From: Nitratireductor thuwali
Lineage (GTDB): Bacteria; Pseudomonadota; Alphaproteobacteria; Rhizobiales; Rhizobiaceae
DNA: 64,000 bases
Assembly (NCBI RefSeq): GCF_036621415.1
Contig: NZ_CP030941.1
Span: forward strand, 992,001 to 1,056,000
Reading direction: 5' to 3'
Of the stretch, positions 38,983-53,244 are shown piece by piece. The notes beneath the pieces are model-generated. The model ran no database searches, had not been told where the DNA came from, and worked only from the letters and a program-made list of their open reading frames with translations. A program made the position numbers and the translations under genes. Numbering within the stretch: position 1 is the stretch's first letter; the number at the start of each line of letters is the position of its first letter.

Positions 38983-40362
38983 ATGCAACGATTGCTAACT
39001 ACCGCCCTTTGGTCGGCAATTGTCCTGGCTGCCGCCCAGGCGCAGGATCAAGATGCGGGCCAGGCTTCAGACCAACGGCAGGGACCCGCCAGGCAGCAGG
39101 ACATCAATGTGGCCCGACCCGGTGAAAGCGGAACGCTTCCGGGCAACCCCTCCCTCGAGCTCAGGGAGGTGACCGGCGGTCTCGTCGACCCCGTCAATGT
39201 CGTGAGCGCCAGGGATGGCAGCGGCCGGCTCTTCGTGGTGGAACGCCACGGCGTGGTGCGCATCGTCGAAGACGGCAGCGTGGCCGAGCAGCCCTTCCTC
39301 GACATCAGCGATATCGTCCTTCCCTATTTCCTCGAACAGGGGCTGTACGACATCGAGTTCCACCCGGACTTCGAGAACAACGGCCATGTCTACGCGCATT
39401 TCGCCGAAACCTTGCGCAACGGTGATTCCCTCATCGTCCGCTATACGGTCTCGCAGGACAATCCCGGACAGATCGATCCCGACAGCGCCAAGCTGATCAT
39501 GCAGATCGATCAGCCCTGGGCCAACCACAATGGCGGCGAACTCGCCTTCGGCCCCGACGGCTATCTCTATATCGGCAGCGGCGACGGCGGCTGGGAAGGC
39601 GACCCGCTGGAGGCGGGGCAGGATCTCGGTACGCTTTTGGGCAAGCTCCTGCGCATCGACGTGAACGTGCCGGACGACAGCTACCAGGCCTATGCGATCC
39701 CGCCGGATAACCCCTTTGCCCGGCAGGCGGGCATCGTCGAGCTTTTTGGGATCACCGAAGAAGAGTTCGCGCAAATCCACACCGAAGCGCGACCGGAGAT
39801 CTGGGCATATGGCCTGCGCAACCCGTGGAAGTTCCACTTCGATTCTGAAACCGGTGATCTCTTTATCGCCGAGGTGGGACAAAACCACTGGGAGGAGATC
39901 AACTTCCAGCCCGCCGACAGCGAGGGTGGCGAGAACTATGGCTGGGATTTCCTGATGGGCACGCACTGCTTCCCCATCGAGGAGGAGAACTGCCCGCAAG
40001 TGGGCGTCCTGCCGGTCGCCGAATACGACCATGAGCATGGATGCTCCGTGATCGGGCTCGGCGTCTATCGCGGCGGGGAGATCGAGGGCCTCGACGGCGT
40101 CTATCTCGCCGGCGACTACTGCGCCGGCACGATCTGGGGTCTGGCGCGCGGCGAGGACGACCAGTGGGTCTTCCAGGAACTCGTTGCCTCCGGCGTGCAG
40201 CTTACCGGCGGCGGAACGGACGAGAACGGCGACGTCTACGTGACGTCATGCAACTGCAACTACGGCGGGCCGCTGCCGCAGGAGAACCCGGCCGGCACGC
40301 TGTGGCAGGTCGTTGCGGCCTCCGGCCAGGACTCCGATGCCACGGGGACAACCCAGCAATAG
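38983..40362 (+). CDS. PQQ-type soluble aldose sugar dehydrogenase
   Basis: The 459-residue exported protein (signal peptide ending near LAAAQAQ) belongs to the Asd/YliI-type soluble glucose dehydrogenase family. It is a six-bladed propeller with SLELREVTGGLVDPVNVVSARDGSGRLFVVERHGVVRI at the start, WANHNGGELAFGPDGYLYIGSGDGG around residue 185, and RPEIWAYGLRNPWKFHFD. These enzymes oxidise aldoses in the periplasm with PQQ and calcium. GGAGGAAATC precedes the ATG. It is the first gene of a forward transcript that continues through sodC, a cytochrome c and eboD-E-C, so its electrons could pass to the cytochrome. Confidence 0.87.
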   Translation: MQRLLTTALWSAIVLAAAQAQDQDAGQASDQRQGPARQQDINVARPGESGTLPGNPSLELREVTGGLVDPVNVVSARDGSGRLFVVERHGVVRIVEDGSVAEQPFLDISDIVLPYFLEQGLYDIEFHPDFENNGHVYAHFAETLRNGDSLIVRYTVSQDNPGQIDPDSAKLIMQIDQPWANHNGGELAFGPDGYLYIGSGDGGWEGDPLEAGQDLGTLLGKLLRIDVNVPDDSYQAYAIPPDNPFARQAGIVELFGITEEEFAQIHTEARPEIWAYGLRNPWKFHFDSETGDLFIAEVGQNHWEEINFQPADSEGGENYGWDFLMGTHCFPIEEENCPQVGVLPVAEYDHEHGCSVIGLGVYRGGEIEGLDGVYLAGDYCAGTIWGLARGEDDQWVFQELVASGVQLTGGGTDENGDVYVTSCNCNYGGPLPQENPAGTLWQVVAASGQDSDATGTTQQ

Positions 40363-40434
40363 CCGCTGAATGCAGCGGCCTCCGTCTTGCGGATGGCCGC
40401 TGCCGGTTTCCAACACGAAAAAAGGAGCAATTTA

Positions 40435-40986
40435 ATGAAACGAGCAGTCACATCGATCGCGGCGCTTGCCGCATGTCTCGCCTGCCCCGGCCTGGCCGCC
40501 GCACAGCAGGGCGAGACCTTGACGGCGGACGTGGTCAACAGCGAGGGGCAGTCGGTCGGCTCCGTGACCTTTGAGCAGGTAGAGCACGGCGTCGTAATCA
40601 CGGCCGATCTTTCCGACCTGCCGCCCGGCCCGCACGGCTTCCATATCCATGAGGACGGCGTTTGCGAGACACCCGACTTCCAGTCGGCCGGCGGGCACTA
40701 CACCCCGGAAGGCCATGCGCACGGCTTCGACAACCCCGACGGATATCACGTGGGCGACCTGCCGAACCTGCACGTGGCGGATGACGGCACGGCGACGGCG
40801 GAGTTCTTCAGCCCGCTTCTGACTTTGTCCCAGCCGGCGGAAGCCGCCGGGAACGGAACGCCGTACACGCTCCGGGACGAATCCGGGTCGGCGATCATGA
40901 TCCATGAAAGCGAGGACAACTACATGGATGCCGACAGCGCCGGCTCCCGGATCGCCTGCGGCGTCATCGCCGAGCCTCAGGGCTGA
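40435..40986 (+). CDS. sodC: Periplasmic Cu/Zn superoxide dismutase
   Basis: ATG 40435 with AAGGAGC upstream gives 183 residues: signal peptide (ALAACLACPGLAAAQ) and a bacterial SodC domain. The copper/zinc ligands appear in GFHIHEDGVC, GGHYTPEGHAHG, HVGDLPNL and the later MIHE; the final SRIACGVI closes the disulphide. It converts superoxide in the periplasm to peroxide. Its place between a sugar dehydrogenase and a cytochrome c, in front of the ebo genes, suggests protection of a periplasmic oxidation step rather than general defence; that is inference. Confidence 0.9.
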   Translation: MKRAVTSIAALAACLACPGLAAAQQGETLTADVVNSEGQSVGSVTFEQVEHGVVITADLSDLPPGPHGFHIHEDGVCETPDFQSAGGHYTPEGHAHGFDNPDGYHVGDLPNLHVADDGTATAEFFSPLLTLSQPAEAAGNGTPYTLRDESGSAIMIHESEDNYMDADSAGSRIACGVIAEPQG

Positions 40987-40997
40987 GGGAGGTGGCC

Positions 40998-41423
40998 TTG
41001 TATATCGGTGCCGAACTTTCGGCTAGAGGCAGGCGGGCCGCGGTGGCCGCCTGCCGCCTGGGCCTTTTGACGGCCGCCACCGGCCTTGCCTTCGTCGCAG
41101 CGGCCCACGCGCAGCCTTCCGCGGAAGAGATCTACCAGCGGCAGTGCGCTGCCTGCCACTCGCTGGAGCCTGGCCGCAATCTCCTGGGGCCGACGCTGCA
41201 CGACATTATCGGGCGCAAGGCCGGTGGTCTCGACAGCTTTGGCAACTATTCGGAGGCGCTGAAGGAATCGGATGTGATTTGGGACGCCGAGACGCTCGAT
41301 CCGTGGATCGAAGCGCCCAACGAGTTCATTCCCGGCAACCGGATGGTCTATCGCGGCCTCAAAGACGAGCAGCAGCGCGAGCAGCTCATCGACTTCCTGC
41401 AGGAACAGGACGGCGGCGGCTGA
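40998..41423 (+). CDS. Periplasmic c-type cytochrome (class I)
   Basis: A 141-residue product with a signal region (GLLTAATGLAFVAAAHA) and one haem c site CAACH (about residues 48-52). The distal part has GPTLHDIIGRKAG and NRMVYRGLKDE, the usual Met-ligand segment of class I cytochromes c. TTG 40998 is preferred as start (GGGAGG five bases upstream); GTG 40992 overlaps that site. The stop of sodC is 11 bases upstream and eboD begins 37 bases downstream, so it is tightly embedded. Likely electron carrier for the sugar dehydrogenase or an Ebo-linked oxidation. Confidence 0.87.
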   Translation: MYIGAELSARGRRAAVAACRLGLLTAATGLAFVAAAHAQPSAEEIYQRQCAACHSLEPGRNLLGPTLHDIIGRKAGGLDSFGNYSEALKESDVIWDAETLDPWIEAPNEFIPGNRMVYRGLKDEQQREQLIDFLQEQDGGG

Positions 41424-41460
41424 GGCGGAGCCCCGCCCCGGCAACAACGGAGGAAAGCTC

Positions 41461-42669
41461 TTGAGCGTCAATGCGTCCATGGTCAGAAACGCTGGCTCTG
41501 TGGAAGAGGTCCATTGGCAGCGCTTTTCCGTCCCCTTCGAATACCCGGTCGCCTTTTCGCGCGGGGTCTTCGGAACGTCCAATCCCGTCCTTGCCGAACT
41601 GATCGCGCGGACCGAGCCGGATAAGCCGCACCGTTGCCTGTTCTTCGTCGACGGCGGCCTGCTGGAGGCGCTTCCCCGGCTGAAGGAGCAGATAGAACTG
41701 TGGTGCCGGGCCTACGCCGACCGCATTGAGCTTGCCGCCAAGGTCATGCCGATCCCCGGTGGCGAGAGCGCGAAGGCCGAAGCCGCCCACCTCACCGCCG
41801 TCGAAGAAGCGGTCCTTGAGCATGGCATCGACCGGCATTCCTGCGTCGTCGCGGTGGGCGGCGGAGCGGTGCTCGATGCCGTGGGCCTCGGCGCGGCGAC
41901 CGCGCATCGCGGCGTCCGCCACGTCCGGGTGCCGACCACCGTCCTGTCGCAGAACGATTCCGGCGTGGGCGTCAAGAATGCGGTGAACTTCAAGGGGGTC
42001 AAGAACTTCATAGGCACCTTCGCGCCGCCCTGGGCGGTGGTGAACGATTTCGAGTTCCTGGAGCATCTGCCCCGGCGCGAGCGCATCGCCGGCATCGCCG
42101 AGGGGGTGAAGGTGGCGCTCATCCGCGACCGCGCCTTCTTCGAATGGATCGAAGCGAACGCGGCCCGGCTGACCGCCTTCGACCGGTCCGCCGAAGAACA
42201 CATGATCCGCCGTTGTGCGAAGCTGCACATGAAGCAGATCGCCGGGGGCGGAGATCCTTTCGAGCGCGGCTCGGCGCGCCCGCTCGACTTCGGCCACTGG
42301 TCCGCCCATAAGCTGGAGTCGCTGAGCGGCCACGCCGTGAACCATGGCGAGGCCGTCGCCATCGGCATTGCGCTCGATGCGCGGTATTCGGTGCTTGCCG
42401 GCCTTTTGCCGGATGGCGAGGAGGAGCGCATCGCAACGCTTCTGCAGAGCCTCGGCTTCCGGCTCTACCATCCGGCCCTTGCCGGGAGCGGCGAAGGCCG
42501 CCGGCCGGCCGTGCTTGCCGGGCTGGACGAGTTCCGCCAGCATCTGGGCGGCGAGCTTACCGTCACGCTCCTGAGCGCGGTCGGGATCGGCGTGGACGTC
42601 CATAGGATGAATCCAGATCTCGTCTGCCGCGCGCTCGAATGGCTGAAAAGACGGGAGGCGATGCGATGA
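41461..42669 (+). CDS. eboD: EboD, 3-dehydroquinate-synthase-like cyclase
   Basis: TTG 41461 has GGAGG seven bases upstream; 402 residues. The fold is that of the DHQ synthase/sugar-phosphate cyclase superfamily: NAD-binding VAVGGGAVLD, PTTVLSQNDSGVGVKNAVN, and the three metal ligands E in AEGVKVAL, H in DFGHWSAHKLE and H in NHGEAVAIG. In the shikimate enzyme the corresponding motif is NLGHTFGHAIE, so this is a distinct branch. In the ebo operon of cyanobacteria and endosymbionts, EboD is proposed to make a cyclic polyol-type intermediate. eboE starts inside its last codons (ATGA overlap). Confidence 0.9.
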   Translation: MSVNASMVRNAGSVEEVHWQRFSVPFEYPVAFSRGVFGTSNPVLAELIARTEPDKPHRCLFFVDGGLLEALPRLKEQIELWCRAYADRIELAAKVMPIPGGESAKAEAAHLTAVEEAVLEHGIDRHSCVVAVGGGAVLDAVGLGAATAHRGVRHVRVPTTVLSQNDSGVGVKNAVNFKGVKNFIGTFAPPWAVVNDFEFLEHLPRRERIAGIAEGVKVALIRDRAFFEWIEANAARLTAFDRSAEEHMIRRCAKLHMKQIAGGGDPFERGSARPLDFGHWSAHKLESLSGHAVNHGEAVAIGIALDARYSVLAGLLPDGEEERIATLLQSLGFRLYHPALAGSGEGRRPAVLAGLDEFRQHLGGELTVTLLSAVGIGVDVHRMNPDLVCRALEWLKRREAMR

Positions 42670-43853
42670 GCGCGGCGCGCGCGGGAGAGGCCCTGACTTA
42701 CTGTCTCAACATCCATCCTGCCGAGACGTGGGAGGAGATGCGCGCGGCGCTGACGGGTCCGGTGCTCAGGGTGCGGGACGGCTTCGCGCCGGATGGTCCG
42801 TTCCCGGTGGGTCTGCGCATCTCCGCCCGCGCGCTCGATGACCTGAAGAAGCCGGAGGCGCGCGCGGAACTGGCCGAACTCCTCCGGGCGGAACAGCTGA
42901 GGGCGGTGACGGTGAACGGCTTCCCCTACGGCCAATTCCACGGAACGCGCGTCAAGGAGGAGGTCTACCGCCCCGACTGGCGGGAGATCGAGCGGCTGCG
43001 CTACACGGTCGATCTCGCGGAACTGATGGCCGATATCGCGCCGCCCGGCGAGACCGTGAGCCTCAGCACCGTGCCGGGCTGCTTCCGGGCGCTCGCCGAC
43101 GGGGCGCAGGACGGCATTGCCGATCACTATCTCCAGGCGGCCGCCTATCTATTCGGGCTCGAGCAGAAGTCGGGGGTGCGCGTCGCGCTCGCCATAGAAC
43201 CCGAGCCCGCCTGCCTGCTCGAGACGATCGCGGAGACCTGCGCCTTCTTTAGGGAAAGGCTCTACAGCCCCTCGGCGCGGCTGCGCTTTGCCAAGCTTAC
43301 GGGGCTTTCGCCCGACGAGGCGCGGGATGTGCTGCCGCGCCATCTCGGCCTTTGCTACGACGTCTGCCATGCGGCCGTGGAGTTCGAGGATCCGGCCGAA
43401 AGCCTTGCGCTCCTGCGCGATGCCGGCGTGCCGGTGCACAAGCTCCAGCTCAGCGCCGCCCTGCGCGTGCCGGAGGTGAGCCCCGAGACGCGGCAGGCTC
43501 TCGGCAAGTTCGACGAGCCGACCTACCTGCACCAGGTCGTCGCCCGCCGCAACGGCGCCCTTTCCCGCTACACGGATCTGCGGCCGGCATTGTCCCGGGG
43601 CGCGGAGGCCGACGGAGAGGAATGGCGGGTGCACTTCCATGTGCCCATATTCCTCAAGGATCTCGGCGCCTTCGAGAGCACGCGCGATTTTCTGGCCCAG
43701 ATCCTCGCCCTCCACCGCGCCGAGCCGATTTCCAACCATCTGGAGGTGGAGACCTACACATGGGACGTGTTGCCGGAGGAACTGCGCCGGCAGAGCGTGG
43801 ACGAGGCGATCCTGCGCGAGCTCCGCTGGGTGAACGAGCAGCTCGGCGGGTGA
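42666..43853 (+). CDS. eboE: EboE, TIM-barrel metabolite-traffic protein
   Basis: The ATG at 42666 overlaps the eboD stop by four bases and follows GGGAGGCGATGCG. The 395-residue protein is an AP-endonuclease-2/xylose-isomerase-like TIM barrel as expected for EboE: YCLNIHPAETWEEMR near the start (conserved in EboE), TVNGFPYGQFHGTRVKEEVYRPDW, IEPEPACLLET, LGLCYDVCHAAVEFEDP (typical metal-binding D/H strand) and VHFHVPIF. EboE in Nostoc is needed for export of the scytonemin monomer; its biochemical activity is not known. Its stop overlaps the eboC start by four bases. Confidence 0.9.
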   Translation: MSAARAGEALTYCLNIHPAETWEEMRAALTGPVLRVRDGFAPDGPFPVGLRISARALDDLKKPEARAELAELLRAEQLRAVTVNGFPYGQFHGTRVKEEVYRPDWREIERLRYTVDLAELMADIAPPGETVSLSTVPGCFRALADGAQDGIADHYLQAAAYLFGLEQKSGVRVALAIEPEPACLLETIAETCAFFRERLYSPSARLRFAKLTGLSPDEARDVLPRHLGLCYDVCHAAVEFEDPAESLALLRDAGVPVHKLQLSAALRVPEVSPETRQALGKFDEPTYLHQVVARRNGALSRYTDLRPALSRGAEADGEEWRVHFHVPIFLKDLGAFESTRDFLAQILALHRAEPISNHLEVETYTWDVLPEELRRQSVDEAILRELRWVNEQLGG

Positions 43854-44698
43854 GCTTCAAGACGATCCTGCGGCTCGGGCGCGTTTCGAACCTGCCGACG
43901 GTGTGGAGCAATGCGCTTGCCGGCGCGGTGCTGGCCGCTGGCCTGCCGACCGCATCCTGGCCCATCCTTGCCGCTGCATTCGCGCTCACCCTCTTCTACC
44001 TCGGCGGCATGTGGCTCAACGACGCCTTCGATGCTGAGATCGACCGTGCGGAGCGGAAGGAACGGCCGATTCCGGCGGAAGAGATTGGGCGCGGCACCGT
44101 CTTCGCCGTCGGCTGGGCTCTGCTGGCGGGGGGCGTCGCCGTCGGGTTTCTCCTGGGTCCAAGCGCCGGACTTGCCGCTGCCGGCGTGGCGCTCGCGGTA
44201 ACGCTTTATGACTGGCTGCACAAAAAGACGCCGCTCAGCCCCCTGATCATGGGGACGACGCGGCTCCTAAGCTATGTTCTGGCGGCGCTGGCGGTCGGCC
44301 ATCTCCCGGCCGTCGTGCTTGCAGCGGGCGCCGGCCTCTTCGCCTATGTCGTCGGTCTCACCTATGCCGCGCGGCGGGAAGCCTCCAATGATCTGGGCGG
44401 CATCTGGCCGTTGGCGGCACTCGCCATCCCGCTCGTCTTTGCGGCCGCCCTTGCCGGCGGCGACCCCTTGGCGCTTGCCCTCTGCGGCGCGCTTCTTCTT
44501 ACGGTGGTCGCGGCCATATGGAGGCTGGTCCGGCGTGGTCCGGGGGACGTCCCGCGCGCCGTGGTGACGCTGATCGCGGGCATATCGCTTTACGATGCGG
44601 CGCTCATCGCTGCGGCGGGATTGCCGATCCTCGCTTTCATTGCCGCTATGGGCTTCGCTCTGACACTTGCGCTGCAGCGCCTCGCTCCGGGAACGTGA
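43850..44698 (+). CDS. eboC: EboC, UbiA-family prenyltransferase
   Basis: GTG 43850 overlaps the eboE stop (GTGA); 282 residues with about eight to nine membrane helices. The UbiA aspartate-rich motif is seen as NDAFDAEIDRAERKERPIP (about residues 57-75), followed by LYDWLHKKTPLSPLIMG and AARREASNDLGG, the weak second motif. The family attaches isoprenoid chains to aromatic or other acceptors in the membrane. With an IPP isomerase 3 kb downstream, a prenylated ebo product is plausible. Its 3' end overlaps that of the convergent eboF gene by 53 bases. Confidence 0.9.
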   Translation: MSFKTILRLGRVSNLPTVWSNALAGAVLAAGLPTASWPILAAAFALTLFYLGGMWLNDAFDAEIDRAERKERPIPAEEIGRGTVFAVGWALLAGGVAVGFLLGPSAGLAAAGVALAVTLYDWLHKKTPLSPLIMGTTRLLSYVLAALAVGHLPAVVLAAGAGLFAYVVGLTYAARREASNDLGGIWPLAALAIPLVFAAALAGGDPLALALCGALLLTVVAAIWRLVRRGPGDVPRAVVTLIAGISLYDAALIAAAGLPILAFIAAMGFALTLALQRLAPGT

Positions 44699-46085
44699 GA
44701 CGGTCGAACAGATGGGCGAGCACCAGCTTCTTGAAATCGACCGCCTTCACCGGCCCCTCAGGCATCAATTCCGGTTCTGAGCTGATAACCAGCGGGCCCT
44801 CCGCCGGGTTCTCTGTCAGCCGCCCATGGGTGCCCTTCACCAGATGCGTCGCGGAAGGCGAGATGATGTCCAGAAGCTGGCGGAAACCTGCCTTGCGCTT
44901 GGCAAGCTTGGCCGCGGCGGTCAGCTTCGGAAAACGGATCTCGGGATCGATGAACAGCTCGACGGGGTCGTAGCCGGGCTTTCGATGGATATCGACGGTG
45001 CGCGCGAAATCCGGCGCCTTCTCCTCATCAAGCCAATAATAATAGCTGAACCAGCGGTCGGGCTCGGCAATCGCAACAAGCTCGCCGGAGCGGGGATGGT
45101 CGAGACCGTTCGCCGCCTTCCCGTCCTCGTCCCATACTGCTTCAACGCCTTCCACATCTTCTATCAGCGCCTTCACCTCCGGGATGCGCGCGCGGTCCGC
45201 CACATACACATGGGCGATCTGGTGGTCCGCCACCGCAAAGGCCGCGCTCGCCCCGCAGTCCAGGATCTCGCGGCCATGCTCCTCCGGGCGCACGGCGATC
45301 AGCCCCGCCTCGCGCAGCGCTCGGTTGAGGTGTACGGCGTCTCGCGCCGGCGTGATGCCATACTCTGAGACGACGATCACGCGCCGCCCTGCCCTGTCCG
45401 CTTCCTCGATCAGCTCGCCGCAAAGCGCATCGATTTCCCTCAGGTCCTGGCGCAGGCGCGCGCTTTGGGGATCGGGCCCGAGCCGCTGGAGATTGTAGTC
45501 GAGATGCGGAAGATAGGTGAGCGTCAGCGTTGGGTCGCGCGTCTGCATGACATGGAGCGTGGCACGCGCGATCCACTGCGAAGAGGTGATGTCGGCCAGC
45601 GGCCCCCAGAACCGGAACAGAGGAAACTGGCCCAGTTTTTCGTCCAGTTCGTCGTGCAGTTCGGGCGGGTAGGCGTAATGGTCCGGGATCTTGCGGCCGT
45701 CGGCCGGGTACATCGGCCGCGGCGTGGCCGACCAGTCGGCGCTCGAATACATATTGTACCACCAGAACATCTTGGCGCAGGTGAAATCGGCATCGCGCCT
45801 GCGCGCCGCCTCCCAGATCTTCTCGCCCTCGACCAGATTGTTGGGCTGGCGCCACAGCATCACTTCCCGCAGATCGCGAAAATACCAGCCATTGGCGACG
45901 GCGCCGTGCCCGGAAGGCGGCAGGCCGGTGGTCAGCGTGGATTGCGCCGAGCAGGTGACGGCCGGCACCACCGTTTCGAGCGGGCGCATGGCACCCCGCT
46001 CGGAAAGCCGCTTCAGGTTCGGCGTGTCGCGGCCGACGAGCTGCGGCGTCAGGCCGACCGCGAGGATGACGAGGGTCTTGCGCAT
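44646..46085 (-). CDS. eboF: EboF-like phosphodiesterase (alkaline phosphatase superfamily)
   Basis: From ATG 46085 the product has 479 residues; the frame is open to 46154 without a better start. It belongs to the type I phosphodiesterase/nucleotide pyrophosphatase group: TPNLKRLSERGAMRPLETVVPAVTCSAQSTLTTGLPPSGHG (nucleophile region, residues 22-62), THLDY-like metal site in YLPHLDYNLQRLGP, and GTHGRLTENP near the end. Where classical members have 'SDHGM' this one has SEYGI, and the first strand is AVGLTP instead of DGLRP, so the metal sites are altered. It is the only reverse-strand gene of the cluster, convergent with eboC and divergent from eboA. Confidence 0.85.
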   Translation of the reverse strand: MRKTLVILAVGLTPQLVGRDTPNLKRLSERGAMRPLETVVPAVTCSAQSTLTTGLPPSGHGAVANGWYFRDLREVMLWRQPNNLVEGEKIWEAARRRDADFTCAKMFWWYNMYSSADWSATPRPMYPADGRKIPDHYAYPPELHDELDEKLGQFPLFRFWGPLADITSSQWIARATLHVMQTRDPTLTLTYLPHLDYNLQRLGPDPQSARLRQDLREIDALCGELIEEADRAGRRVIVVSEYGITPARDAVHLNRALREAGLIAVRPEEHGREILDCGASAAFAVADHQIAHVYVADRARIPEVKALIEDVEGVEAVWDEDGKAANGLDHPRSGELVAIAEPDRWFSYYYWLDEEKAPDFARTVDIHRKPGYDPVELFIDPEIRFPKLTAAAKLAKRKAGFRQLLDIISPSATHLVKGTHGRLTENPAEGPLVISSEPELMPEGPVKAVDFKKLVLAHLFDRLTFPERGAAAQVSERSP

Positions 46086-46177
46086 TGAACCGCAACGCAC
46101 GCCGGCGGCAGGAAGTTGCAACCGAAGCCGCTTCTCTGCGTTAGCGAGGATCATGTCGAATCAAGCGGGAGGAGAAA

Positions 46178-47029
46178 ATGCAGCCGGCACAGCAGGTCCT
46201 GCATGACATCGTTCTTTCCCGCTCCGGCGATCATATTGGATGGGTGGAGAAGACTCTTGCCGCGCTTCGAGCCGGCGCTCCGGAGCGGGAGCTCCACGTC
46301 TTCCTCGGCCTTGCGCCGCGCCGTCTCGGCAAGGCGGACCTGAACGCTTCGCACGAGGAGCGGCTGGCGGCGGATGCAGCGCGGCCCGGCTGGTCGTTGG
46401 AAGACTGGAGCGTCGACGGAGCGGCACGGGTACTGGCGCTTCTCGTCTTTCAGGGGGCCCGGCCCTTTGCCGAAACCTTCAAGGACTTGCGTCGCACGGC
46501 CGATGCCGCCGAGTTGATCGCGCTTTATCGCGGCCTCCCGCTCTATCCCGAGCCCGAGACCCTCCATTTCGAGGTCGGCGAGGGTTTGCGCTCGAACCTA
46601 AAGCCCGTCTTCGAGGCGATCGCGCATCGCAACCCGTTCCCGCGCGACCATTTCGACGAGCACCGCTGGAACCACATGATCCTCAAGGCGCTGTTCGTGG
46701 ACAGCCGCCTGGCGCCCATCGTCGGCCTCGACGAACGGGCCAACCCGGAGCTGGCGCGCATCCTGCGCGAATACGCCCATGAGCGCTGGTCGGCGGGCCG
46801 CAAGGTCTCGCCCGAGCTCTGGCGCTGCGTCGGCCCCTTCGCGGTGGACGATCCGGCATTGGCAGACCTTGAACGTGCCCTCAAGGAGGGCGGAGCGGCC
46901 GCGCGGGCGGCGGCTCTTGCCCTTTCCGCTTCTCCCCATCCCGCCGCACGCGAGCTGCTCCGGCAGCGGCCGGAAGCCGAGGACATCGCCTCCGGCCGGC
47001 TCGACTGGCAGAGCTTGGAGGCCGCGTGA
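46178..47029 (+). CDS. eboA: EboA
   Basis: GGAGG before ATG 46178 gives 283 residues. The protein is helical, without signal or membrane segments, with the EboA-domain pattern: DWSVDGAARVLALLVF (residues 76-91), FRTAD-like region, AIAHRNPFPRDHFDEHRWNHMILKALFVDSRL (about residues 147-178) and HERWSAGRKVSPELWRCVGPF. EboA proteins have no known enzymatic activity but are always found with eboB-F. The conserved His/Asn/Lys in the central block may contact a partner. It overlaps eboB by one base (TGATG), so the two are translated together. Confidence 0.88.
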   Translation: MQPAQQVLHDIVLSRSGDHIGWVEKTLAALRAGAPERELHVFLGLAPRRLGKADLNASHEERLAADAARPGWSLEDWSVDGAARVLALLVFQGARPFAETFKDLRRTADAAELIALYRGLPLYPEPETLHFEVGEGLRSNLKPVFEAIAHRNPFPRDHFDEHRWNHMILKALFVDSRLAPIVGLDERANPELARILREYAHERWSAGRKVSPELWRCVGPFAVDDPALADLERALKEGGAAARAAALALSASPHPAARELLRQRPEAEDIASGRLDWQSLEAA

Positions 47030-47949
47030 TGTATATCGACCCCCACGCCCACATGATCAGCCGCACCACCGACGATTATGAGGCGATGGCCGCCGCCGGC
47101 ATTGTGGCGGTGATCGAGCCGGCCTTCTGGATCGGCCAGCCGCGCACCTATGTCGGCACCTATGTCGATTACCTCTCCTCCATCGTCGGCTGGGAGCGCT
47201 TTCGCGCCGGCCAGTTCGGCATTCGCCACTATTGCACGGTCGGCCTCAACTCGAAGGAGGCCAACAACGAGGAACTGGCCGAAGGCGTGATGGAATGGCT
47301 GCCCCGCTTCGCCTTGAAGGAAGGCGTCGTGGCCATCGGCGAGATCGGCTACGACGAGCAGACAGCGCTGGAGGACCGCTATTTCCGCGCCCAGCTCGAG
47401 CTGGCGAAGGAGTTGGAGCTTCCGGTGATGGTGCATACGCCGCACCGCGACAAGAAGCGCGGCACCACCCGCTCGATGGACGTGATCGAGGAGATCGGGC
47501 TGGACCCGTCAATGGTGGTTATCGACCATAACAACGAGGAGACCGTGGCCGAGACGCTGCAGCGCGGTTTCTGGGCGGGCTTCTCGATCTATCCCTCGAC
47601 CAAGATGGGCAACCGCCGCATGGTGGAGCTTCTCAAGCAGTACGGCGGCGAGCGCATCATCGTCGATTCGGCCTGCGACTGGGGCATATCGGATTCGCTC
47701 GGCGTGCCGAAGACGGCGCGGCTGGCACTCGAAAGCGGCGTGCCCGAGCAGACGGTACGTCGCGTCTGCTATGCCAATGCCCTGGAGGTTTACGGCAAGA
47801 GCGGGCAGATGCGCGAGGAGGACTGGCTGGCCCCGCCGGAGATCGACCAGCGGACGCTCTATGCCGGCAACTCCATCCTGCGTGGCGGGCGCGAGCCGAT
47901 CATCGGAACGGAGGCGCAAAAGAGGCGCGACGATCTCATCATCGAGTGA
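47029..47949 (+). CDS. eboB: EboB, TatD-family metal-dependent hydrolase
   Basis: ATG 47029 overlaps the eboA stop (TGATG); GTG 47026 is the alternative. The 306-residue protein is a TatD-like amidohydrolase: YIDPHAHMISR with the HxH pair (residues 5-7), AIGEIGYD with the metal-ligand Glu, VMVHTPHRDKK, VVIDHNNEET, and IVDSACDWGISD with the final Asp. TatD proteins are nucleases or phosphodiesterases; EboB forms a separate branch found only in ebo operons. The set of metal ligands is complete, so an active hydrolase is likely. Confidence 0.88.
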   Translation: MYIDPHAHMISRTTDDYEAMAAAGIVAVIEPAFWIGQPRTYVGTYVDYLSSIVGWERFRAGQFGIRHYCTVGLNSKEANNEELAEGVMEWLPRFALKEGVVAIGEIGYDEQTALEDRYFRAQLELAKELELPVMVHTPHRDKKRGTTRSMDVIEEIGLDPSMVVIDHNNEETVAETLQRGFWAGFSIYPSTKMGNRRMVELLKQYGGERIIVDSACDWGISDSLGVPKTARLALESGVPEQTVRRVCYANALEVYGKSGQMREEDWLAPPEIDQRTLYAGNSILRGGREPIIGTEAQKRRDDLIIE

Positions 47950-47993
47950 GAGGTTTCGCACCGCCCTCGATCACCGGAGGCCCATATCGTCCG

Positions 47994-48530
47994 ATGCCGA
48001 TACCTGCTGAAAACGTCGTCCTGGTCGACCCCGAAGGCCAGCCGACCGGCATTGCCGGAAAGCTCGAGGCGCATCGCCGGGGTCTGCGCCACCGCGCGGT
48101 TTCCGTTTTCCTGCTGAACGGCGCCGGCGAAATGCTGATCCAGCAGCGGGCGGCGGGAAAGTATCACTCGCCAGGACGCTGGGCCAACGCCTGCTGCACC
48201 CATCCGCGCCCCGGAGAAGAGCCCGCGGCGGCGGCCGCCCGCAGGCTCGGCGAGGAATTGGGCATCCGGTCTCCACCCATCTTCCCCTTCGGCACCGTCG
48301 CCTATCGGGAAACTGTCTCCCCCACCCTCATCGAAGACGAGGTCTGCCAGCTCTTCACAGGCCGGTTCGATGCGGCGGTGCGGCCGAATCCGGCCGAGGT
48401 GGCGGCCACGCGATGGGTCGGCAAAGAGGCTCTGTTGATGGAGGTCGAAAGCACGCCGGAGCGGTTCGCCGTCTGGTTCCGCATCTATCTGGAACGGCAC
48501 GCGCCGGCGCTCTTCTCGGCAGGCGGCTGA
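47994..48530 (+). CDS. idi: Isopentenyl-diphosphate delta-isomerase, type I
   Basis: ATG 47994 (GGAGG about 13 bases upstream) gives 178 residues; a GTG at 47946 overlapping the eboB stop is an alternative. Type I IDI motifs are present: AVSVFLLNGAGEMLIQQRAAGKYHSPGRWANACCTHPRPGE with the catalytic Cys, AAAAARRLGEELGI (Nudix-like helix) and IEDEVCQLF with the catalytic Glu. It interconverts IPP and DMAPP. In proteobacteria that make both by the MEP pathway it is dispensable, so its place at the end of eboA-B suggests it supplies prenyl substrate for EboC. Confidence 0.9.
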   Translation: MPIPAENVVLVDPEGQPTGIAGKLEAHRRGLRHRAVSVFLLNGAGEMLIQQRAAGKYHSPGRWANACCTHPRPGEEPAAAAARRLGEELGIRSPPIFPFGTVAYRETVSPTLIEDEVCQLFTGRFDAAVRPNPAEVAATRWVGKEALLMEVESTPERFAVWFRIYLERHAPALFSAGG

Positions 48531-48626: not shown

Positions 48627-49484
48627 CTAGTCTCGCACCGCGCTCCTGAACGCAGCCGAAAGCGCCACAAGCGCATCGCGCGGCCGGCCGTCCCTGACCC
48701 TTGAGTGAAGGAGAACTGGCAAGCGCGGCAGTTCGGGAAGCCCGAGCGTGGGCCCCACATTGATCGCGCCAAACGGCAGCATGCGCCGAGCCAGTGCAGC
48801 AACGCCGAGCCCGGCCATGACGGCCGCAGAGACCGCCGCGACGCCGCCACCGACGAAAGCTTCCGTCCACGGCACGCCTGCCTCATCGAGAAGCTGCCCG
48901 GCCAGGACACGCACGCCGCAGGGCTCGGGCATCGTGGCAACCGGCAGGGGCTCGCCCGCGCGATGCTGCCAGTTTGGCGCTGCGTACCAGCCGAATTTCT
49001 CTTCGGTCAGGATTTCCCCGTCGCTCCGTCCGACATGCTGGCGGACGACCACCGCCTCGAGTTCCCGCCGGTCGAAGCTTTGAAGCAGGTCGCCCGAGGA
49101 TCCGATGCGGATCTCGATCAACAGCTGCGGGTCTTGCGCATTCATGCGCGCGATCAGTTCCGGAAGCTCCGGCCCCGCGACATGGTCGCTGATGCCGATG
49201 GTCAGGCGTTGCCGGGCTCCGGCAAGAACCGCGAACGCGCGGTCGTGTGCCTCCAGGAGCTCGCGGGCGTGTTCGAGGAAGCTTGCTCCCTGCGCCGAAA
49301 GCGCCACATGCCGCGGCGTCCGCTCAAGGAGCCGGCAGCCAAGTCGTTCTTCGAGCCGCTTCAGCTTCAAGCTCACGGCCGACTGCGTCGTCCGCGCGGC
49401 CTCGGCCGCACGCGTGAAGCTGCCAAGCTCGGCGATACGAACGAATGCCTGGACGGCATCCAGATCAAGAGGGCGCATTATCAT
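48627..49484 (-). CDS. LysR-family transcriptional regulator
   Basis: The 285-residue protein has a full LysR layout: HTH at residues 5-60 (DLDAVQAFVRIAELGSFTRAAEAARTTQSAVSLKLKRLEERLG) and an effector domain with SRRELEAVVVRQ-like strands and AVSAAVMAGLGVAALARRML. It is divergent from a tautomerase gene 94 bases away, the classic arrangement of a LysR regulator and its target. Start is ATG 49484 or 49478. Effector unknown; autoregulation through the shared intergenic region is likely. Confidence 0.88.
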   Translation of the reverse strand: MIMRPLDLDAVQAFVRIAELGSFTRAAEAARTTQSAVSLKLKRLEERLGCRLLERTPRHVALSAQGASFLEHARELLEAHDRAFAVLAGARQRLTIGISDHVAGPELPELIARMNAQDPQLLIEIRIGSSGDLLQSFDRRELEAVVVRQHVGRSDGEILTEEKFGWYAAPNWQHRAGEPLPVATMPEPCGVRVLAGQLLDEAGVPWTEAFVGGGVAAVSAAVMAGLGVAALARRMLPFGAINVGPTLGLPELPRLPVLLHSRVRDGRPRDALVALSAAFRSAVRD

Positions 49485-49500
49485 TTACAACCGTTATCTT

Positions 49501-49523
49501 TGATATGACTAATCATAGTATCA
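49501..49523. promoter_or_regulatory. Candidate LysR operator between divergent genes
   Basis: The interval between the LysR and tautomerase starts holds an AT-rich partial palindrome with outer arms TGATA/TATCA and an inner ATGA-N4-TCAT. It contains T-N11-A spacing typical of LysR boxes. Position and symmetry support it; no binding data. Confidence 0.45.
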
Positions 49524-49578
49524 CAAAATAGCCAGGCGGCGTCTAATATGAAGGCGGATCAGATGGAAAGGACCCGCA

Positions 49579-49959
49579 ATGCCGCTCTGTCACATTTCAC
49601 TGCGTGCCGGAAAATCGGAAGCCTATCGGCAGGCGATCTTCGATGGCCTGTACCGTGCGTTGCGCGATACGTTCGACGTGCCCGAAGACGATCAGTTCAT
49701 GACCATCACGGAACATGAGGGAGCGAACTTCCGCTACGGCGCGTCTTATCTCGGCATCGCCCGCAGCGACGACCTCGTGGTGATCCAGATCACCGCGAAC
49801 AACACCCGCACCCTGGAACAAAAGAAAGCGTTGTTCCGGCGGATCGCCGAATTGCTCGGCGAAACTCCCGGCATACGGCCGGAGGACGTATTCGTGAGCC
49901 TTGTCGAGGTCAAAAAGGAAAACTGGTCCCTCGGCCACGGCCTTGCGCAATATGCTTGA
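49579..49959 (+). CDS. Tautomerase-family protein
   Basis: The 126-residue protein begins MPLCHISL, giving the N-terminal proline that is the catalytic base of the tautomerase (4-OT) superfamily after Met removal. The rest fits the family: RQAIFDGLYRALRDTFDVPEDDQFMTITEH, VVIQITANNTRTLEQKKALFRRIAELLGETPGIRPEDVFVSLVEVKKENWSLGHGLAQY. Substrate unknown. Expression is probably controlled by the divergent LysR gene. GGAAAGGA lies just before the start. Confidence 0.85.
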   Translation: MPLCHISLRAGKSEAYRQAIFDGLYRALRDTFDVPEDDQFMTITEHEGANFRYGASYLGIARSDDLVVIQITANNTRTLEQKKALFRRIAELLGETPGIRPEDVFVSLVEVKKENWSLGHGLAQYA

Positions 49960-50156
49960 GCCAACACTCGCATTTCCTGCGCCGGTGTAGGTGGCGTTCG
50001 TCGCAGGCTCGGCGTCGTCGGCCGGTTGGCATAGGCCGGGCCCTGCCTGCATGATGGCCCGTGATCTACCCGGTCTACTGCATCTGTGCGGCACCTACAT
50101 CCGCCCCGATGCAACCTTGCCTCCCAGTCCGCGTTACCATCGGATGGGGAACCGAT

Positions 50157-50309
50157 ATGCGCAAACGAACTGCGGTCCTGCTGGCGCTAATAGCATTTGC
50201 TGTCCTCGCCGCTGCCATCTTCCTTCTGGGAAGGGAGAACCTGCGTGCCACGGACGCATTGCAGGAAAGCCCTCCCAGCCTCGTGGTTCCGGAGAGTGGC
50301 AGTGATTAG
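50157..50309 (+). CDS. Putative small single-span membrane protein
   Basis: From ATG 50157, with GGGGAA upstream, a 50-residue product: MRKR, a hydrophobic helix (TAVLLALIAFAVLAAAIFLL) and a short polar tail. The positive N terminus and single helix are typical of small membrane proteins, but no family is known and the length alone is weak evidence. The stop directly abuts the palindromic repeat at 50310. Confidence 0.35.
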   Translation: MRKRTAVLLALIAFAVLAAAIFLLGRENLRATDALQESPPSLVVPESGSD

Positions 50310-50353
50310 CAGTTCCAGGAAAAGTGGAAGCCGGTTTTCCGTCTGGAATTGCG
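50310..50353. repeat. Intergenic palindromic repeat, copy 2
   Basis: Second copy of the element at 22977-23020, differing at a few positions (CAGTTCC for GCAATTCC and TCTGG for TCCGG), with the core TTCCAGGAAAAGTGGAAGCC conserved and closed by GGAATTGCG. The following GGCGAACTGA resembles the start of the right arm seen after copy 1. Confidence 0.7.
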
Positions 50354-50418
50354 TGAAGTCGGCGAACTGACCTGGCGGCCGGACACGCGCCCAAACCGCA
50401 TCTTGCAGGAGGCATTTC

Positions 50419-50736
50419 ATGGCCGAAGCCCGGGATTCCAACGGTGTGCCCGCCGAAGTCCAAGAGGCGATAAAGCGGTTTCTAGCCGCCGCTGAAGATG
50501 AAACCGAGCTGATCGAAATGTCGGAGGCGATCGAGGCAGTACGGCGCGTTTTCCCTGATCTGGATGTCTCGGACAGTGCCCTCACGGATGCCATCGCAAG
50601 CGAAGCGTCGGTTGCCGGCTTCGATATCGATTACGATGCAGAGCGCCAGCCAAAAGCGTTCAAGCGGAAAGCGATCGAGCGCTGGGACAATGAAGGCGGC
50701 GCGATCGGCAAGAACGACGGCGACCGATCCGGCTAG
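50419..50736 (+). CDS. Small acidic protein, unknown function
   Basis: The 105-residue product is acidic in its first two thirds (EDETELIEMSEAIEAVRRVFPDLDVSD) and basic near the end (KAFKRKAIERWDNEGG). A GGAGG stands eight bases before the ATG, which together with a protein-like composition makes it likely real. No family recognised. It lies upstream of the siderophore receptor on the same strand but is separated by a 300-base regulatory region with no other supportable gene. Confidence 0.55.
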   Translation: MAEARDSNGVPAEVQEAIKRFLAAAEDETELIEMSEAIEAVRRVFPDLDVSDSALTDAIASEASVAGFDIDYDAERQPKAFKRKAIERWDNEGGAIGKNDGDRSG

Positions 50737-50942
50737 ATCCGCACCGTTGGAGCCTTCCGAGCGATCTCCACCTTGAGGCCGTGTACCTTCCCGAACCTTC
50801 CGATCATGAGGCGGCCGGCGCGGATTTCGTCTGGAAGCCGGTGCCCCGCGGCAGCACGCCCGCATGTGCGGCTGTGAATGCGGGGGCCAGGAAGTCAGTT
50901 GTCCGGCATCCTCGAAATGCAAGCCGAGCGTGTCCTTTTTCT

Positions 50943-50962
50943 TGACAATGACAATCATATTT
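50943..50962 (+). promoter_or_regulatory. Iron-responsive operator (RirA/Fur-type box)
   Basis: TGACAATGACAATCATATTT fits the rhizobial iron-responsive operator TGA-N9-TCA (50943-50957). From 50944 it also matches 14 of 19 positions of the classical Fur box. It lies about 80 bases before the TonB receptor gene. RirA or Fur repression of the receptor-importer operon under iron sufficiency is therefore predicted. Confidence 0.6.
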
Positions 50963-51039
50963 TCTAGCGAGAAGCTCAAGAAGCCAGGTCGCTCCACGGC
51001 AGCTACCCAGCCAGCAAACATCGTTGATGCGAGGGCTCA

Positions 51040-53244
51040 ATGCGTATGCGTGTCTGGCCATACCTTCTTTCGACTTGTCTCGTCACGCCGGCCGCGTGGG
51101 CGCAAGACCAGGGAACATCCACAATGACATCGACCCTTCTCGACCGGCTCGTCGTGACGGCCGGCCGCGAGGAAACGTCCATCGCGGGGGTCGCCCAGTC
51201 CGTCATTGTGCTGGAACGCGACGAGATCGAGCGGGCGATGGAGATTTCGCCGAATGCGACGGATCTCGTGGAGCGCCTGGTGCCCGGCTTCGCGCCGTCC
51301 AACCAGACGATTTCCGGCGGATCGGAAACCTTCCGCGGCCGCAGCGTGCTGATCATGGTCGACGGCGTGCCGCGCAATACTCCCCTGCGCGACGTCTCCC
51401 GCATCCTGTCCTTGATCGACCTCGAGACCGTGGAGCGTGTCGAGGTGGTGAACGGTTCGTCCAGCCTTTACGGAGCGGGTGCGACCGGCGGTACCATCAA
51501 CTTCATCACCAGGCGCGGCACCAGCGAAAGGCCAACCATGACCGTTCGCACCGGCGTGACGGCCTTCACCGAGAATGTCGGCAAGTCCGCAGCCCCCGAA
51601 ACGAGCGTGACGGTGGAGGGCCGGAAGGGCGATTTCGACTATTTCTTCGCCGCCTCGAGCGAGCTGACACGCCGCACCTATGACGGCAACGGCAACGAGA
51701 TGCCCTCCGATGCTATGCTGGGCCAGGGTGGCGGCGACCGCACCGGCTCGGCCGACCTCTTCGGCGTCATGGGCTATGAAAGCGGTTCCCGGCGCTTCGA
51801 AGCGACCGTCGACTGGACCTATGCCGAACAAGAGCCCGACTGGTTCACCGATTACACGACCAACCCGGTCTCGCCGAATTTTTCCGATGCCTATAAGGGC
51901 GAGCCGTTGAAGGAAGATTCCAAATATTTCACGGCCAAATATACCGACAGCGCCTTTGCCCTCGGCAATCTGGAAGTGAAGGCCTACTACAACAAGATCT
52001 TCAAGCAGTCGCCCTTCACCAAGTTCTCCGCGGTCAACTCCGTTGTCTACTACTCGGGCGATCCGCGGAATCCGACCGCCGATTACAACCAGTCGGCGCT
52101 TGAGGCCGACCGGACAGGGCTGAACCTGACGGTCAACTCGCCCATCGACTTCGTACGCGACGGCGCCATGCTGACCTGGGGCGCCGACTACGCCTATGAC
52201 GACACCCGTCAGAAGCTCACCAACGGCTGGGACGTCATCTCGCCGATGACGCAGCATTCCATTGCGGCCTTCGCGCAGGCCGAGGTGCCCATTACGGATC
52301 GGTTCCGGCTTCAGGGCGGCGTGCGCTTCGACCAGTTCTTCCTTGACGTCGCCGATTTCGAGCGGCCGGAGGCTTATGTCGGCCAGTACCGCATGGCATT
52401 CCCGGCCATCGACGTGCTCGGCGGCTCCTTCGACTACAATGCCTTTACCTTCAATGCCGGCGCCGTCTTCGACCTCACCGACGCGTTGCAGGCATTCGGC
52501 AATTTCTCGCAGGGCTACAGCCTGACCGACATCGGCGCCTTTACCCGCCGGGCGGGTCTGAACACCGCGGCGGAAGCCTGTGACGCCTACGGCGCATTGC
52601 TCGGCGCGCTCGGCTGTACCGGCCTGCCCGATTTCACGATCAGCTACGCCAATATCGCGCCGGAGCCCCAGTTGGTGAACACCTATGAGGCAGGCCTGCG
52701 CGGCGACTGGGGAGACTTCCGCGGCACCGTCAGCGCCTACCTGTCGACCTCCAAGGACGGCGTGAACTACGACGTGGCCGCCAACCGCGTCACCCAGCAG
52801 GAAGAGCGCATCTGGGGCGTGGAGGCTTCCGCCGAGTACGACATCAACACCATGTTCACGGTCGGCGGCCTGCTCGGCTACATCGAGGGCAAGTACGACG
52901 AGGATGGCGACGGGTCGGTGGACGACTATCTGCCGAACAACCGCATTCCGTCCACCTGGAAGGGACTCGCCCATGTGACCGCCCGCTTCGACAATGGGTT
53001 TAGAGCGCGCGGCGAGGTGGAGCATATCTCCGGGCGCGACCGCATCGAGGGCGAAGAACTCGACGGCGTGACACTCGTCAACGTGGCCGTTTCGAAGTCC
53101 TTCGAAAACGGCGGCGAACTGAGCCTGGCGGTCCGTAACCTCTTCGACACCGACTACATCAATCCGACAGCGACCGCCACGCGCGGCGCGCCCGTCGCGG
53201 GGTTGGGGCGGTCGGTCTTCGCATCTTACAGGATCACCTTCTGA
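51040..53244 (+). CDS. TonB-dependent hydroxamate siderophore receptor
   Basis: The 734-residue protein has a signal peptide (YLLSTCLVTPAAWAQ), a plug domain (LDRLVVTAGREETSIAGVAQSVIVL, VDGVPRNTPLRDVSRIL, VERVEVVNGSSSLYGAGATGGTINFITRRG) and a 22-strand barrel ending RSVFASYRITF with terminal Phe. Among family members it fits ferric-siderophore receptors of the RhtA/IutA class by its place in the cluster. GAGGG lies nine bases before the ATG, and there is an in-frame second ATG two codons in. It is controlled by the iron box upstream and co-transcribed with the small protein and importer genes that follow. Confidence 0.88.
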   Translation: MRMRVWPYLLSTCLVTPAAWAQDQGTSTMTSTLLDRLVVTAGREETSIAGVAQSVIVLERDEIERAMEISPNATDLVERLVPGFAPSNQTISGGSETFRGRSVLIMVDGVPRNTPLRDVSRILSLIDLETVERVEVVNGSSSLYGAGATGGTINFITRRGTSERPTMTVRTGVTAFTENVGKSAAPETSVTVEGRKGDFDYFFAASSELTRRTYDGNGNEMPSDAMLGQGGGDRTGSADLFGVMGYESGSRRFEATVDWTYAEQEPDWFTDYTTNPVSPNFSDAYKGEPLKEDSKYFTAKYTDSAFALGNLEVKAYYNKIFKQSPFTKFSAVNSVVYYSGDPRNPTADYNQSALEADRTGLNLTVNSPIDFVRDGAMLTWGADYAYDDTRQKLTNGWDVISPMTQHSIAAFAQAEVPITDRFRLQGGVRFDQFFLDVADFERPEAYVGQYRMAFPAIDVLGGSFDYNAFTFNAGAVFDLTDALQAFGNFSQGYSLTDIGAFTRRAGLNTAAEACDAYGALLGALGCTGLPDFTISYANIAPEPQLVNTYEAGLRGDWGDFRGTVSAYLSTSKDGVNYDVAANRVTQQEERIWGVEASAEYDINTMFTVGGLLGYIEGKYDEDGDGSVDDYLPNNRIPSTWKGLAHVTARFDNGFRARGEVEHISGRDRIEGEELDGVTLVNVAVSKSFENGGELSLAVRNLFDTDYINPTATATRGAPVAGLGRSVFASYRITF

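Follow-up and report, generated by a model that had tools for sequence, protein, structure and literature searches.

The ebo genes, reported from several bacterial phyla and some algal plastids in the available text of PMC5133447, were analysed here in a 64,000-nucleotide stretch of Nitratireductor thuwali DNA (the window; positions 992001-1056000 of a 4.2 Mb contig, from a genome with a completeness of 99.9%). The window holds all six ebo genes in a row with genes for a protein of the glucose/sorbosone dehydrogenase family (GSDH), a Cu/Zn superoxide dismutase (SodC), a c-type cytochrome and an isopentenyl diphosphate (IPP) isomerase (Idi). By comparing the sequences of ebo loci and genomes, we show that GSDH together with a cytochrome c is a specific and recurrent, not a universal, partner of ebo.

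The ebo locus of Nitratireductor thuwali

A first-pass annotation, made from the DNA sequence, had placed six ebo genes, an IPP isomerase gene after eboA-eboB, and three redox genes in this region. All ten genes were found where it put them, at 38983-48530, and in profile searches each exceeds at least one Pfam or NCBIfam cut-off:

38983-40362, + strand: GSDH, exported six-bladed beta-propeller of the glucose/sorbosone dehydrogenase family, ebo-linked type 1 (PF07995, 123.6 bits; cut-off 25)
40435-40986, + strand: SodC, exported Cu/Zn superoxide dismutase (PF00080, 133.4 bits; cut-off 28.9)
40998 (TTG; or GTG 40992)-41423, + strand: exported c-type cytochrome, cytochrome c-550-like (PF00034, 27.3 bits; cut-off 21.3)
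41461-42669, + strand: EboD, sugar phosphate cyclase family (NF004852, 567.5 bits; cut-off 333)
42666 (or 42639)-43853, + strand: EboE, TIM-barrel protein (NF035939, 431.1 bits; cut-off 250)
43850-44698, + strand: EboC, UbiA-family membrane prenyltransferase (PF01040, 67.3 bits; cut-off 34.2)
46085 (or 46154)-44646, - strand: EboF, type I phosphodiesterase/nucleotide pyrophosphatase family (PF01663, 221.1 bits; cut-off 23)
46178-47029, + strand: EboA, nearly all-helical (NF035938, 159.9 bits; cut-off 50)
47026-47949, + strand: EboB, TatD/amidohydrolase family with a DPHAH metal-type motif (PF01026, 64.4 bits; cut-off 27)
47946-48530, + strand: Idi, type I isopentenyl-diphosphate isomerase (TIGR02150, 114.5 bits; cut-off 105.8)

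By strand the genes form three units, gsdh-sodC-cytochrome-eboDEC (+), eboF (-) and eboAB-idi (+). With the starts chosen, the gaps between gsdh, sodC, the cytochrome gene and eboD measure 72, 11 and 37 bases, as previously noted, and the overlaps already described for D-E, E-C and A-B amount to four bases each once start codons are checked. EboB and Idi overlap by four bases too, and the 3´ ends of EboC and EboF by 53. No terminator or promoter was detected between the cytochrome gene and eboD (41424-41460) in a consensus scan, which is a weak test, since over the whole stretch such sites were no more numerous than in shuffles. A GC-rich hairpin without a U run lies in the gsdh-sodC gap (40372-40403, + strand), with perfect arms of 9+9 bases (40372-40380 and 40395-40403); the fold of 40355-40434 has a minimum free energy of -31.8 kcal/mol (z -3.0), and none of 200 shuffles was equally stable. 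Because of this strong hairpin, gsdh is perhaps not fully co-transcribed with the genes downstream, and the element is a possible attenuator or processing site.

The homologues of eboA to eboF are clustered, as expected of an ebo cluster, with EboE above an equivalog and EboA above a domain cut-off; EboA falls below the cut-off of the subfamily NF035937 (216.7 vs 320 bits). EboC is under the cut-off of its equivalog NF035940 (96.4 vs 250 bits), which is nonetheless its best NCBIfam match; the gene stands within the ebo row, and the protein has an NDAFDAEID motif and multiple membrane-like segments. A true AroB was rejected for EboD, which does not reach the cut-off of TIGR01357 (214.6 vs 305 bits). 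NF004852, the model that it passes, also carries the NCBI name 3-dehydroquinate synthase. The motif RPLDFGHW is invariant in 15 of 15 aligned EboD sequences, and the 3-dehydroquinate synthase 3okf has ALLNLGHT at this place. The structural model of EboA is nearly all-helical (pLDDT 95.7); 32 of its residues, 12 of them charged, are invariant across 16 sequences and, judged from this conservation, may form a binding or active site. Idi also exceeds the cut-off of PRK03759 (166.7 vs 127 bits), as a type I IPP isomerase should. The N-termini of GSDH, SodC and the cytochrome resemble signal peptides, judged by eye and with a hydropathy window rather than a dedicated predictor.

GSDH and cytochrome c beside ebo

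With the presence of ebo scored by EboE (NF035939) and the window's own genome counted, ebo occurs in 1 of 16 genomes of the genus (0 of the 15 others), 3 of 61 relatives, 6 of 394 genomes of the family and 15 of 397 of the order. Close orthologues of the window's GSDH (54-59% identity, at least 425 bits; the next best match has 227 bits) were found in 11 of the 397 genomes of the order, namely in 11 of 15 with ebo and in 0 of 382 without (Fisher 1.6e-18, kinship ignored). The ebo and GSDH searches were here treated as covering one set, as they had an equal genome number and the same unmatched genomes. At a threshold of 130 bits the counts become 14 of 15 vs 8 of 382, and among the 61 relatives closer homologues (at least 169 bits) are present in 3 of 3 genomes with ebo and 2 of 58 without.

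GSDH and Idi had also recurred in a first screen, a tblastn search of the window proteins against 100 ebo loci. An unbiased survey covered 54 entries after removal of three duplicates: the window and 53 loci, all alpha- or gammaproteobacterial save for one myxobacterial; it includes close kin, and two entries (L122 and L123) are contigs of one genome. The non-ebo families seen in at least four entries were GSDH (29), TMEM220 (18), two cytochrome families designated f7 (16) and f8 (14), Idi (13), an ABC-transporter group (11) that is probably unrelated to ebo, a VTT/DedA membrane protein (10), a GntR regulator (8) and two families confined to Salinicola (4 each). The family clustering was incomplete, the f8 gene of L117 having been missed by it.

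A c-type cytochrome gene lies on the same strand, at most 1.5 kb downstream, of all 17 type-1 GSDH genes of the survey. In 16 cases it belongs to f8 (the member at L056 scores 106 bits on MoxG, the methanol dehydrogenase cytochrome, under a cut-off of 147.8), the window being the exception. The other ebo-linked GSDH genes are mostly followed by a different family, f7 (15 of 18, one GSDH being in two pieces), which suggests that the pairing of GSDH and cytochrome arose more than once. The window's cytochrome has one CAACH haem motif, scores 63.9 bits on NF043008 (below its cut-off of 240) and gave tblastn matches in L033, L120 and L177; the f7 family includes two-haem fusions with a first half similar to it (74.3 bits on NF043008 for L027). 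A cytochrome that is retained while its family changes is the pattern expected of an electron acceptor.

The association does not merely reflect a shared neighbourhood, because in one genome (G134) a type-1 GSDH gene with its adjoining f8 gene is found on contig C3 and ebo on contig C10; a second type, GSDH-2, stands beside ebo in the same genome. The first-pass annotation had tied the trio of sugar dehydrogenase, sodC and cytochrome c to ebo. GSDH plus cytochrome c holds up as a kind of pair; the exact trio does not, since SodC adjoins ebo only in the window and L112 and the window's cytochrome is not of the usual family. Outside Pseudomonadota, 1 of 47 stretches has a GSDH above the threshold used, and the weak matches in seven others carry little weight because each of the three such genomes searched has at least ten GSDH matches, of varying strength. 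A third, divergent GSDH-like gene without a cytochrome was seen between eboF and eboA in two loci (L028:14613-15941 and L033:14643-15962).

The family assignment of GSDH rests on its PF07995 score and six-bladed propeller fold. It is far below the cut-off of TIGR03606, the NCBIfam subfamily of glucose/sorbosone enzymes with pyrroloquinoline quinone (PQQ) (49.5 vs 434.55 bits), and in sequence the ebo-linked proteins resemble Hedgehog-interacting protein (HHIP) more than they do any PQQ sugar dehydrogenase of solved structure (profile scores of 237 bits vs at most 104). His182 and Arg279-Asn280 are invariant in 16 of 16 GSDH sequences, and HHIP has His-Asp in place of Arg-Asn. These three residues are candidate equivalents of the catalytic His144, Arg228 and Asn229 of sGDH. 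HHIP, a relative, is not known to be an enzyme. Searches for PqqC in 13 genomes with a type-1 GSDH found it in seven; the six without a match are the window's genome and five others. The absence from the window's genome leaves the earlier label "PQQ-type" uncertain, and PQQ is a doubtful cofactor. ScyE, presumably a propeller-type protein, was rejected as an identity for GSDH; one type-1 protein reaches 19.7 bits on the ScyE family model, which has a cut-off of 80.

Idi, SodC and other neighbours of ebo

For comparison with 20 genomes carrying ebo, 60 genomes without it were picked by index number out of the relatives and the genomes drawn for the order. Idi scores at least 96 bits in 14 of 20 vs 8 of 60, and lies within 15 kb of eboE in 10 of those 14, which bears out its proposed role as a companion of ebo; at the curated cut-off the counts are 8 of 20 vs 6 of 60. 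TMEM220 (PF15071) is found in 10 of 20 genomes with ebo, always within 3 kb of eboE, and in 0 of 60 without. This family, named after a human protein and exemplified by L118:11719-12144, is the one counted in 18 of the 54 survey entries, and it adjoins ebo in Granulosicoccus and Chitinophaga loci as well. The VTT/DedA protein (e.g., L033:17763-18389) follows eboB directly in 9 of its 10 survey entries; at L025 it lies past the f8 cytochrome. Lipid scramblases and transporters of undecaprenyl phosphate are among the proteins with a VTT/DedA domain. The protein seen here, which matches a model of undecaprenyl-phosphate transporters weakly (32 vs 250 bits), could be a flippase for an ebo lipid.

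SodC is the sole PF00080-family match of the genome and remains under the NCBIfam SodC equivalogs (best 130.8 vs 250 bits). A sodC gene lies beside ebo in 2 of 67 proteobacterial stretches, some of which share a genome, and in 0 of 47 stretches of other phyla; across these stretches SodC is not a regular ebo partner. It is about an even question whether the genes for SodC and the window's cytochrome c were inserted here by chance, as oxidative stress genes that contribute nothing to ebo, only GSDH and Idi belonging to the system. The rarity of sodC beside ebo speaks for such an insertion, as does f8, the usual GSDH cytochrome, not being found in the searched 24 kb of the window; sodC is nevertheless placed between gsdh and the cytochrome gene on one strand with short gaps, and the second locus (L112) has another sodC in the row gsdh-f8-eboF-sodC. 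An insertion of this kind is compatible with a periplasmic oxidation linked to ebo.

Downstream of idi, at 48627-53244, are genes for a LysR regulator (- strand), a tautomerase and a TonB-dependent receptor. The tautomerase and the receptor have no match of at least 45 bits in the 100 ebo loci, and the regulator has weak matches in L032, L038, L040 and L118. A gene for a "ferritin-like protein" is found near ebo on both the Mycetohabitans megaplasmid and the Gloeothece plasmid (L167 and L170).

A possible periplasmic redox step and its alternatives

We lean, by a modest degree, towards a redox variant of ebo whose membrane-anchored product is oxidised in the periplasm by GSDH, with electrons passing to cytochrome c. 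The cytosolic EboD, EboE, EboA, EboB and EboF would build a polar, cyclitol-type head group, EboC would prenylate this group in the inner membrane, and Idi would increase the supply of prenyl diphosphate. On the periplasmic side, the exported GSDH could oxidise the head group of this lipid-like product, or a molecule delivered by it, and the cytochrome c of the adjoining gene would take up the electrons. At related loci this acceptor would come from one of two cytochrome families, one of them like the methanol dehydrogenase cytochrome, and VTT/DedA may flip the lipid. From gene content we infer the direction of electron flow, the flipping by VTT/DedA and the ebo product itself as the substrate of GSDH. 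The ebo product is favoured over a separate cargo as substrate because, besides ebo, no other biosynthetic enzyme family occurs in at least four survey loci. In a more specific version, a prenylated cyclitol is flipped to the periplasmic face and oxidised there by GSDH, whose own cytochrome c would receive the electrons; the ring might become a dione or resemble a quinone. The product would then be a new membrane-anchored redox molecule, and ebo, GSDH and cytochrome would make up a small respiratory or oxidative finishing chain beyond the inner membrane. This version we regard as improbable.

Several observations weigh against a redox variant. Eight genomes of the order without ebo carry GSDH homologues at 130-227 bits, and two ebo-carrying genomes, of Bradyrhizobium centrolobii (G785) and a Halomonas (G780), gave no GSDH match. 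Within the fetched flanks, a full ebo set lacks GSDH in 7 of 13 Rhodobacterales loci, and the same holds for two loci each of Bradyrhizobium and Azospirillum and for all six from Halomonas and Salinicola. No GSDH was found within about 9 kb of ebo on seven named plasmids, which came from a set of 18 with 80% coverage of EboD. They belong to Azospirillum, Salipiger, Roseivivax, Ketogulonicigenium, Mycetohabitans, Deinococcus and Gloeothece, and the last yielded EboB and EboD only. With many ebo loci and these two genomes lacking it, GSDH is an accessory of ebo and not part of its core. The window itself has a different cytochrome c, behind sodC, in place of f8, its genome has no TMEM220 and its locus no VTT protein, and the hairpin stands between gsdh and sodC. 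Since PqqC was found in only 7 of 13 genomes, a PQQ enzyme in the others would require external PQQ. Finally, Phycorickettsia, a published carrier of ebo, is reported to have no cytochrome c in the available text of PMC6092422.

A first alternative, which we consider distinctly less probable than a redox step on the ebo product, is that ebo makes a carrier or exporter and that GSDH and cytochrome c oxidise the delivered cargo, as ScyE is thought to act on the scytonemin monomer. In Nostoc punctiforme, ebo mutants retain this monomer in the cytoplasm (PMC6282210, available text). The exported nature of ScyE is shared by GSDH, and the weak match of one type-1 protein to the ScyE model points the same way; the survey, however, revealed no cargo-making enzyme family in four or more loci beside ebo, and no such enzyme is apparent in the seven flanking genes scanned in the window. 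Hitch-hiking, in which GSDH, the cytochrome and Idi were transferred with ebo as a mobile block and serve separate pathways such as sugar oxidation, is quite unlikely: ebo is patchily distributed in the genus, family and order and the window's ebo genes look transferred, but different GSDH types and two cytochrome families have been joined to ebo, with at least eight changes in the presence of any GSDH required over the 46 rows of the Ebo tree, and G134 keeps a type-1 GSDH and ebo in one genome without their being neighbours. In a tree of EboE, EboB and EboF (quick method) the window groups with Limibaculum (support 84), within a 17-row clade of Rhodobacterales and Halomonadaceae (support 100) apart from the ebo of its own family, and this placement makes transfer of the window's ebo likely. 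The window's GSDH, unlike its ebo genes, does not group with Limibaculum.

The proposed oxidation of the ebo product can be set against the ebo systems described so far. The ebo operon that PMC5133447 describes from eustigmatophytes and bacteria resembles the window in having all six genes, and DECABF is among the orders reported in its available text. The prenylated cyclitol that the first-pass annotation suggested as product is not a new idea, as it was proposed in the same paper and a cyclitol-type lipid carrier in PMC6282210 (both in their available text). The main text of PMC5133447, as far as available, contains none of the terms cytochrome, superoxide, glucose, sorbosone and PQQ, unlike the present analysis, nor isopentenyl, TMEM220 or DedA, and these associations come from the loci compared here. 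Within the available text of the ebo literature searched, no link of GSDH and cytochrome to ebo was found. The scytonemin-related ebo genes of Nostoc punctiforme come, like those of the window, with an exported protein, in their case ScyE, whose place of action is the periplasm (PMC6282210, available text); the window differs in that none of its scanned genes was recognisable as a scytonemin gene and that GSDH is not ScyE. Extra genes for exported proteins also join ebo in the EDB cluster of Pseudomonas fluorescens, mutants of which become edible to nematodes (both as related in the available text of PMC6282210). Ubi-297, the EboC homologue of marine Flavobacteria, is a UbiA-like enzyme within an ebo cluster, as is the window's EboC, and farnesylates test substrates in vitro; the best substrate identified for it, according to the available text of PMC9235831, is 8-hydroxyquinoline-2-carboxylic acid, not a cyclitol. 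The window's EboC itself is under the NCBIfam EboC cut-off.

In conclusion, the link of redox genes to ebo proposed in the first-pass annotation is partly supported: at the level of gene content it appears strengthened for GSDH plus cytochrome c and for Idi, and weakened for SodC. TMEM220, VTT/DedA and Idi are indicated as further candidate partners of ebo. GSDH and its cytochrome may serve to trace the ebo product, which could be sought among the ebo-dependent lipids as one able to reduce the cytochrome. The association of this pair with ebo would narrow the models of ebo function from cargo export to a defined step beyond the membrane.

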